From contig JAUXAI010000069.1 in assembly GCA_030619985.1 (NCBI GenBank), positions 1-5,474 of the forward strand: a DNA stretch of 5,474 bases, in the 5' to 3' direction. Positions 3,733-5,474 of this stretch are shown piece by piece. The DNA is from a bacterium. GTDB lineage: Bacteria > UBP18 > UBA7526. The notes beneath the pieces are model-generated. The model had not been told where the DNA came from, did no database searches, and was given only the letters and a program-made list of their open reading frames with translations. The position numbers were made by a program, and so were the translations under genes. Every line of letters begins with the position of its first letter. Position 1 is the stretch's first letter.

Positions 3733-4164
3733 ATGAAGATATTAGTAATTCATGGGCCAAACTTGGACCTCTTGGGCACCAGGGAGCCGGAGGTCTACGG
3801 TAAGACTACCTTGGCTGAGATCGATAAAAGGATTCAAAACTTGGCAAAAGAGAAAGGGGTAGAGGTCAGGACCATTCAATCCAACCATGAAGGAGAGATT
3901 GTGGAGGAGATAAGTAATTCCAGAGAAGATGTCTTAGTCATCAACCCTGCTGCCTATACCCATACCAGTGTGGCCATAAGAGATGCCATTGTCGCTAGAA
4001 AGATACCGACGGTAGAGGTTCACCTCTCCAATATCTATGCCCGGGAAGAGTTCCGCCATAAATCTCTGATTGCTCCTGTAGCAGTAGGTCAGATCTCTGG
4101 CTTCGGAGTGGATAGCTATCTCTTAGGATTAAAGGCAGCAATTTCTTACCTTAAGAAGAAATGA
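3733..4164 (+). CDS. aroQ: 3-dehydroquinate dehydratase, type II
   Basis: Catalyses reversible anti-elimination of water from 3-dehydroquinate to 3-dehydroshikimate. It is the small dodecameric, heat-stable type II enzyme, unrelated to type I AroD. From ATG 3733 it is 143 aa, standard length. The N-terminal signature [20 protein letters not shown], then VYG, contains conserved Asn10, Arg17 and catalytic-loop Tyr22. Next come [12 protein letters not shown] (49-60), [10 protein letters not shown] (70-79, with His77), VEVHLSN (94-100, with catalytic-type Glu96 and His98), REEFRHKS (104-111) and [11 protein letters not shown] (123-133). All expected active-site residues are visible. It uses the product of the adjacent aroB. 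The stop codon overlaps the start of the next gene as ATGA. Confidence 0.97.
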
Positions 4165-5474
4165 TTTTTGAGCGGCTCATTACTTTGGGCTTGGTGGCCA
4201 TTATTCTCTTCAGCCCCCTCTTCAGAGCCGCCCTCCCCATCTGGGCTATAACTTCCGTTTACTTAATACTCTTAATTACTTTAGCCATCTGGCTGATCAG
4301 GATAAAAGAGGATAGGGAATTCAGTTTTACCCCGCTCCTGTGCACAGGGGCGGGGTTTACCAGAACCCCACTGGATCTCCCCATCCTCTTTTTTATTCTC
4401 TTCGCTTCTCTCTCACTGATAAAATCAATCAATATCCATCACAGTATAAGCGCTCTCTATCGCCTCATCTCTTATGCCCTGATATACTTTCTGCTAGTCA
4501 ATAATATCAAAAGTAAAATAGAAGTTAAAAAACTAATCTTGAGCGTATGGGGAGTAAGTGTCTTTGTCGCCCTATATGGCCTCATAGAATTCTTTATCCA
4601 CAATTTCAGCCCACCCTTTTCTACTTTCCCCAATCTAAATATCTTTGCCAGCTTTCTACTTATTCCTTTTTCCTTAGCCTCAGGGATATTACTATTCGGC
4701 GAGAGAGAGGGAAGGGGTAAAAGAATAGTTCTGAGAATAATGCTCGTCCTTTTTCTCTTTGCCATCATAACTACCAGGTCTCGGGGGACCTTCCTGAGCT
4801 TAGCCTTGATCGTTATATTCCTTGGGGCCTTAAAAAGTAAGCGCTATGCCCTAATAGCATTGGGCTTGCTCATTCTTATTTTCAGCCTTCTTCCCACCCC
4901 AACTAATTCACCATTAGTTCGCCTGATAACTGTAGGAGGAAAGGATCCTTATGCCTATATCAGGATTTCTATCTGGAAAACCGCCCTTTCCATATTTAAG
5001 GACCATCCTCTCTTGGGCACGGGCCTGGGAACTTTTAAGGATGCCTTTTCCGGATATAGCTTTCCAGTAGAAGGGGTCTTTGCCCGCTTCGGGAAGAAGG
5101 CTTCCTTTGCTCACAATGAATACTTGCAGCTTGCTTCTGAGGCGGGAATATTTGCTCTGGGAATATTCATCTGGCTCCTATTTGCTTTCTTCAGAAAAGC
5201 AAAAGAACTATTAAAGAGCCTTCAGGGCAAAAAAGAGTATGGCTTAGTTATCGGTCTGATAGCAGGAATAATGGGAGTCTTGATCCATAGCCTGGTAGAC
5301 TTTCCCCTCCATGCTCCAGCTATTCCTATCATCCTCTTTATAAATGCAGGCATAGTAATGGGCTTGGGTAGTTCAAAGTCCCCCGAAGGACAAGCCTACG
5401 GGGCAGGCAAGGTCCAAAGTCCAAAGTCTAAGATTATATTTTTGCAGAGCAAGAGGTATTATCTCTACTTAGTC
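4161..5474 (+). CDS. O-antigen ligase/polymerase-family (Wzy_C) membrane protein, 3'-truncated
   Basis: The frame starts at ATG 4161, overlapping the aroQ stop, and stays open for 438 codons to the window edge, so the C-terminus is missing. Roughly twelve hydrophobic segments are visible (about residues 5-23, 25-45, 70-85, 93-109, 119-137, 150-168, 190-204, 210-222, 228-243, 322-345, 362-380, 386-402). The order fits the family. [11 protein letters not shown] (204-214) ends a membrane segment. The large extracytoplasmic loop (about 244-320) carries [23 protein letters not shown] in two adjoining parts, then [12 protein letters not shown] from His318. [11 protein letters not shown] begins at His376. 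Such proteins join or polymerise lipid-linked sugar chains at the outer face of the inner membrane; ligase versus polymerase versus protein O-glycosyltransferase cannot be decided. Many relatives carry a C-terminal TPR region, which would be out of view. Start coupling with aroQ is likely because no good RBS precedes it. Two in-frame palindromic insertions lie at residues 58-67 and about 408-423. Confidence 0.88.
4326..4361. mobile_element. Miniature palindromic insertion with 6-bp direct repeats, in frame in the O-antigen ligase gene
   Basis: TTTACC at 4326-4331 recurs at 4356-4361, exactly 30 bp later. Between and partly over them lies a 28-bp palindrome: arm ACCCCGCTCCTGTG (4329-4342) against CACAGGGGCGGGGT (4343-4356), 13 of 14 bases complementary, the odd one a U-G pair in RNA. 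Deleting one 30-bp period removes exactly ten residues ([10 protein letters not shown]) and rejoins FSFT to RTPLDLPI, which reads like an ordinary family sequence. The arrangement looks like an element insertion with target duplication, at the loop before the third membrane segment. Chance palindrome or slippage remains possible. No transposase is encoded here. Confidence 0.6.
5374..5428. repeat. CAAAGTC heptamers flanking a small palindrome, in frame near the 3' edge
   Basis: CAAAGTC occurs at 5374-5380, 5415-5421 and 5422-5428, the last two in tandem. Between the first and second lies a palindrome: CCCCGAAGG (5381-5389), loop ACAAG, CCTACGGGG (5395-5403), 8 of 9 bases paired. From first to third heptamer is 48 bp. 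Removing it leaves SSK joined to SKIIFLQ and keeps the frame (16 codons lost). The encoded stretch, rich in Gly, Ser, Pro, Lys and Gln, follows the last visible membrane segment, a plausible tolerant linker. Confidence 0.55.

Follow-up and report, generated by a model that had tools for sequence, protein, structure and literature searches.

A 26-bp palindromic element inserted in frame in a bacterial O-antigen ligase gene and its relatives in Omnitrophota

Palindromic elements that lie within protein-coding sequence have, to our knowledge, so far been regarded as peculiar to Rickettsia and Wolbachia, and we know of no established mechanism for their insertion. The Rickettsia palindromic elements (RPEs; Ogata 2000, as reviewed) measure 105–150 bp and are confined to the Rickettsiales (PMC2229807, PMC10969869), with their target duplication being listed as unknown in review (PMC2229807), and the known miniature elements of the MITE type in bacteria are of approximately 70–300 bp (PMC3733652). 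REP elements are short palindromes of 20–40 bp. The cyanobacterial SDR elements, which Elhai reportedly described in 2008 as dispersed units of 21–27 nt that are perhaps the smallest mobile elements, are said to lie mostly outside coding frames.

The element described here is located in a window of 5,474 nucleotides (the whole stretch of DNA that was analysed; contig JAUXAI010000069.1), within a gene at positions 4161–5474 of the + strand which runs off the contig end and encodes an O-antigen ligase family protein (Wzy_C; E 1e-21). An initial annotation of this DNA had pointed to a palindrome between TTTACC repeats 30 bp apart, and this arrangement was confirmed by position and by shuffling: the two repeats occupy 4326–4331 and 4356–4361 at a spacing of 30 bp, the sequence ACCCCGCTCCTGTGCACAGGGGCGGGGT at 4329–4356 is palindromic with one mismatched pair, and 26-bp palindromes with at most one mismatched pair did not occur in any of 200 dinucleotide shuffles of the window. 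When folded as single-stranded DNA the palindrome forms a hairpin with a z-score of −3.0, and the ligase reading frame continues uninterrupted across it. Other repeats were also observed in the window. Close to the ligase frame's 3′ end (5379–5403) a further short inverted repeat, CCCCGAAGGACAAGCCTACGGGG, adjoins AAAGTCC tandem repeats; a 4-bp duplication was not seen at this site and the repeat may be a member of a different repeat family. The intergenic region between aroK and aroB (2396–2560) contains long inverted and direct repeats of the GGTTAATATCGGTTAAC type.

Orthologous ligases from genomes G002, G001, G004 and G003, which share 81–84% identity with the window's gene, allowed the insertion to be delimited. 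Exactly ten codons are missing in all four of them, which bears out the in-frame gain of exactly ten codons that had been proposed for the window; the suggested comparison of orthologues for presence or absence of these residues thus came out in favour of the initial interpretation. The empty site of G002 reads GAATTCAGT-TTTACCAAAACC, as against GAATTCAGT-TTTACCCCGCTCCTGTGCACAGGGGCGGGG-TTTACCAGAACC for the filled site of the window, and the sister-species empty site is CAGT-TTTACC. A single TTTA is present at three of the four empty sites (G002, G001 and G004), the site in the G003 ligase being diverged and without TTTA. Because three empty sites hold this single TTTA, the insertion is seen to consist of a 26-bp element, CCCCGCTCCTGTGCACAGGGGCGGGG (4330–4355), formed by two 13-bp inverted repeats that abut and contain one T-G mismatch pair, together with a 4-bp target-site duplication whose left and right TTTA copies occupy 4326–4329 and 4356–4359, respectively. 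The net insertion is therefore 30 bp (4326–4355), equal to ten codons in the + strand frame of the ligase. The initial description of a near-perfect palindrome thus holds, whereas its length of 28 bp is corrected to 26 bp by the empty-site comparison. In the same manner the flanking duplication is real, although it comprises 4 bp and not 6 bp: the TTTACC repeat is partly a coincidence, since the element starts with CC and the target sequence that follows TTTA also reads CC. As the insertion is absent from all four relatives, which represent three genera, it is most simply regarded as derived in the window's lineage.

Further copies, as the initial annotation had anticipated, were found both in the same genome and in relatives. 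In the genome of origin one copy lies in frame inside lipA (residues NPAPARRSGV) and others are intergenic; each of the six genomes from the window's family carried the element, whereas it was lacking from the 54 other genomes sampled. A scan of one genome per species, covering 84,980 species, yielded 44 stretches matching the palindrome. Copies from the window's family, from Omnitrophota MAGs and from a single Thermodesulfovibrionales MAG mostly have matched 4-bp flanks that vary between copies (TTTA, TAAA, TTAA, TGAA, TTCA and TCAA), the targets being short, A/T-rich and typically TNNA; the expectation of flanking duplications of varying sequence is therefore upheld, at a length of 4 bp in place of the predicted 6 bp. 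Variants of the arms carry compensated changes (CCCAGC..GCTGGG, CCCCGCYCTTG..CAAGRGCGGGG and TCCCGC..GCGGGA), and G002, G001 and G004 share their elements and flanks, letter for letter, with the MAGs CSMAG_2709, CSMAG_2684 and KR13_S3.mb.88. No 4-bp duplication accompanies the matches in Streptomyces, Cupriavidus, Methylobacterium, Maricaulis and others, which were treated as chance palindromes or terminators, as was a match without duplication in the viral contig L271.

Most copies at the fetched loci lie inside long open frames, to which they add ten codons. Exact ten-residue gaps at the position of the insert were observed in comparison with the solved structures of LipA (4u0o), UvrA (9gxk) and formate-tetrahydrofolate ligase (FTHFS; 4ioj), and other host genes identified through Pfam encode an MTHFR C-terminal domain, an aminotransferase, a Kdo transferase, CstA, a heptosyltransferase, ApbE and an AcrB-type transporter. 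The multiple copies, the empty sites and the many in-frame copies sustain the earlier proposal of a small mobile palindrome that spreads into coding sequence. The parallel drawn with RPEs, which are longer, was also well founded, the same in-frame behaviour being seen here with a shorter unit. Like RPEs, these are dispersed palindromic repeats with inverted ends, located in frame in conserved protein genes and with no known mobilising enzyme; unlike RPEs as described, they measure 26 bp, display a clear 4-bp duplication and occur in several phyla, with copies in Omnitrophota as well as the window's family.

The palindrome is one member of a broader group of short CCCC..GGGG elements. When palindromes with repeated flanks were sought in an unbiased scan, sister elements came to light which have CCCC..GGGG ends and 4-bp duplications and differ in their arms and lengths, and ends of this group were found in 13 of 386 sampled genomes. 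Hosts of the longer sister elements, again identified through Pfam, include DNA polymerase I, RACo and RecG. A census was performed on 1.08 Mb of G061 (an Omnitrophica UBA1562 MAG), which represents part of that genome, using innermost CCCC..GGGG inverted-repeat pairs of 18–120 bp as the unit (n = 143). An exact 4-bp flank repeat accompanied 102 of the 143 pairs and an exact 5-bp repeat only one, and a shifted control gave no four-of-four match. The G061 duplications are mostly TAAA, TTTA, TGAA and TTCA, with CACG/CGTG among the rarer ones. For the 59 elements in a coding context, defined as both flanks being open on one strand over 60 codons or more, the frame was kept without a stop in 44, kept with a stop in three and not kept in 12, some of which may lie between genes.

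Several features of individual members of the CCCC..GGGG group were observed. Elements are nested within elements of the same group at L017 107, L251 12374 and L242 7307, which shows that insertion took place in repeated rounds. A 62-bp subclass, which sits in frame in some genes, has two internal hairpins between CCCCGTTAGA ends (three-way junction; L236 8015, L220 12182, L186 4249 and L245 4478), and a CCCCGTTAGA element at L129 1505–1585 overlaps a nitroreductase/SagB-like frame at its start and may supply the start codon. Three viral contigs carry ends of this group with matched duplications (L272 2682, L273 5498 and L274 305), and a 29-bp viral-contig element is identical to a G061 copy (L195, L167), the viral duplication being TTCA/TGAA and that of G061 a different one; these viral-contig copies hint at movement with phages. 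No paper naming the ends CCCCGTTAGA or TCTAACGGGG, or such Omnitrophota palindromes, was found in the open-licence literature, and priority is not certain. By structure the elements are extreme MITEs, sharing inverted-repeat ends, a target-site duplication and a lack of coding capacity with Correia/NEMIS, RUP, ERIC and other such elements. They differ from MITEs with an interior in that the window's element consists of ends only; its sister elements possess interiors. No parent transposon was found in the DNA scanned.

The lengths of these elements fall into distinct classes. Pooled over G061, G065, G063 and G060, there are 34 elements of 25–36 bp, one of 37–45 bp, 93 of 46–57 bp, 15 of 58–76 bp and 20 of 77–160 bp, the lengths for G065, G063 and G060 having been computed from match positions with duplications not individually checked. 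In G061 the end types GTTAGA, GCYC and GCACCT each occur in both main size classes, with none between 31 and 45 bp. The internal eliminated sequences of Paramecium (IESs) are no shorter than 26 bp, and their lengths peak first at 26–28 bp; a second peak is nearly forbidden and the next lies at 45–46 bp. The authors' model invokes a complex of transposase type, assembled on two 13-bp ends, for which a loop is either unneeded or of about 45 bp, and excision is proposed to proceed via a domesticated piggyBac transposase (PMC3464196). The bacterial elements resemble IESs in their minimum of about 26 bp, in the near-empty class below 45 bp, in the next class from 45–46 bp and in their location inside genes. 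Paramecium IESs are, however, flanked by TA and cut from the DNA, whereas their bacterial counterparts are retained, seem to be translated and bring about a 4-bp duplication. The Paramecium-like size pattern may be regarded as the best hint of the mechanism, although a small number of founder sequences could also yield such classes.

Judged from these sequence comparisons, the element is very probably a minimal, non-autonomous, transposon-like unit that is mobilised in trans and kept in genes when the frame is preserved. Two terminal inverted repeats of approximately 13 bp abut to give the 26-bp palindrome, and this inserts at short A/T-rich targets with duplication of 4 bp, a DDE-type transposase supplied in trans presumably making a 4-bp staggered cut in the target before joining the ends. 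The size classes suggest that the synaptic complex of two ~13-bp ends would be either loop-free or accompanied by a DNA loop of at least ~46 bp. Insertions within genes would survive mainly when the element length plus four is divisible by three and the frame meets no stop; since it is frame-preserving, stop-free insertions that survive, the ten extra residues are proposed to be translated.

The trans-acting transposase is something that we infer, and none was found. Models for IS1380 (PF13701, NF033539), Y1 and DDE_Tnp_1 gave no match in the window's family (G000–G005), no long copy bounded by element ends was present in the DNA scanned, which derives from incomplete genomes, and no multicopy transposase ORF was obvious in the 1.08 Mb of G061. 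Since the MAGs are not complete and the assembly of multicopy transposons is poor, the missing transposase constitutes weak evidence. IS1380, suggested as mobiliser by the TTAA-like duplications and the CCC ends, was rejected on the lack of a match in the window's family and because the fragments in G060 and G065 are without such ends; DDE_Tnp_1 is likewise lacking in the family, and the two G061 genes of this type were without CCCC..GGGG ends in the scans. End pairs separated by 300–6000 bp, considered as a possible autonomous copy, proved to be two independent short elements or chance occurrences.

It is very unlikely that a REP-like hairpin is moved here as single-stranded DNA by a Y1 (RAYT) or IS200/IS605-type enzyme, with the flanking tetranucleotides as cleavage sites. 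The hairpin indeed matches REP elements in size, many copies are flanked by a conserved tetranucleotide, and Y1 genes are present in G061, G063 and G065, but RAYT/Y1 was rejected as mobiliser, no match being obtained in any of the window's six family genomes. Moreover, the flanking four bases match within each copy and vary between copies, and mismatch-bearing arms occur in either orientation relative to TTTA (G004:C72, G001:C11). The elements are not REP elements: they lack a GTAG/CGTC tag, having flanks such as TTTA, TAAA, TGAA and similar, and possess a target duplication.

Removal of the insert ahead of protein synthesis or in the course of it, whether through IES-like excision of DNA or through translational bypassing between matching codons, would accord with the stable hairpin, with the IES-like size pattern and with the matching codons which the duplication often creates on both sides; bypassing of hairpins has been proposed for the byp elements of yeast mitochondria. 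This is nevertheless highly improbable, as coding-context elements are overwhelmingly frame-kept and stop-free, which would be unneeded if they were removed, and the element is still present in the assembled DNA. We attach similarly little probability to copies being made without a dedicated enzyme, by replication slippage, by template switching at the hairpin or from an RNA copy. Perfect hairpins are prone to slippage and template switching, and Elhai (in 2008) reportedly suggested RNA intermediates for the cyanobacterial SDR elements, which are likewise short (21–27 nt) dispersed repeats, albeit from a different lineage; yet a dedicated step of cutting and joining is indicated by the 4-bp duplication, which is constant and accompanied by exact ends, and by the recurrence of identical sequences in distant lineages. 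The chance that this is an immobile ordinary hairpin (a terminator or chance palindrome) and an old part of the gene is practically nil, for although GC-rich hairpins occur in many genomes and matches without the 4-bp duplication exist in Streptomyces, Cupriavidus and others, the notion is refuted by the empty sites and opposed by the multiple copies, the duplications and the mid-gene positions.

Beyond the preferred reading of a minimal transposon-like element mobilised in trans, a broader proposal may be advanced tentatively, and with more doubt than confidence: these elements could constitute an undescribed bacterial transposon group, reduced to two abutting 13-bp ends and moved by a piggyBac-like transposase that has escaped recognition and is probably encoded by the host; their lengths would be set by an IES-type rule (about 26 bp when loop-free or at least 45 bp when looped), and they would supply insertions of 10–19 residues to core proteins in several phyla. 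Few mobile DNA units as small as the window's element have been seen, and its size is close to the minimum that a transposase could still hold by two ends. Since a clear insertion signature (the 4-bp duplication and the exact empty sites) is here combined with a near-minimal unit, the mechanism is testable. Through elements of this kind, core enzymes including LipA, UvrA, FTHFS and DNA polymerase I have repeatedly gained short insertions in frame.
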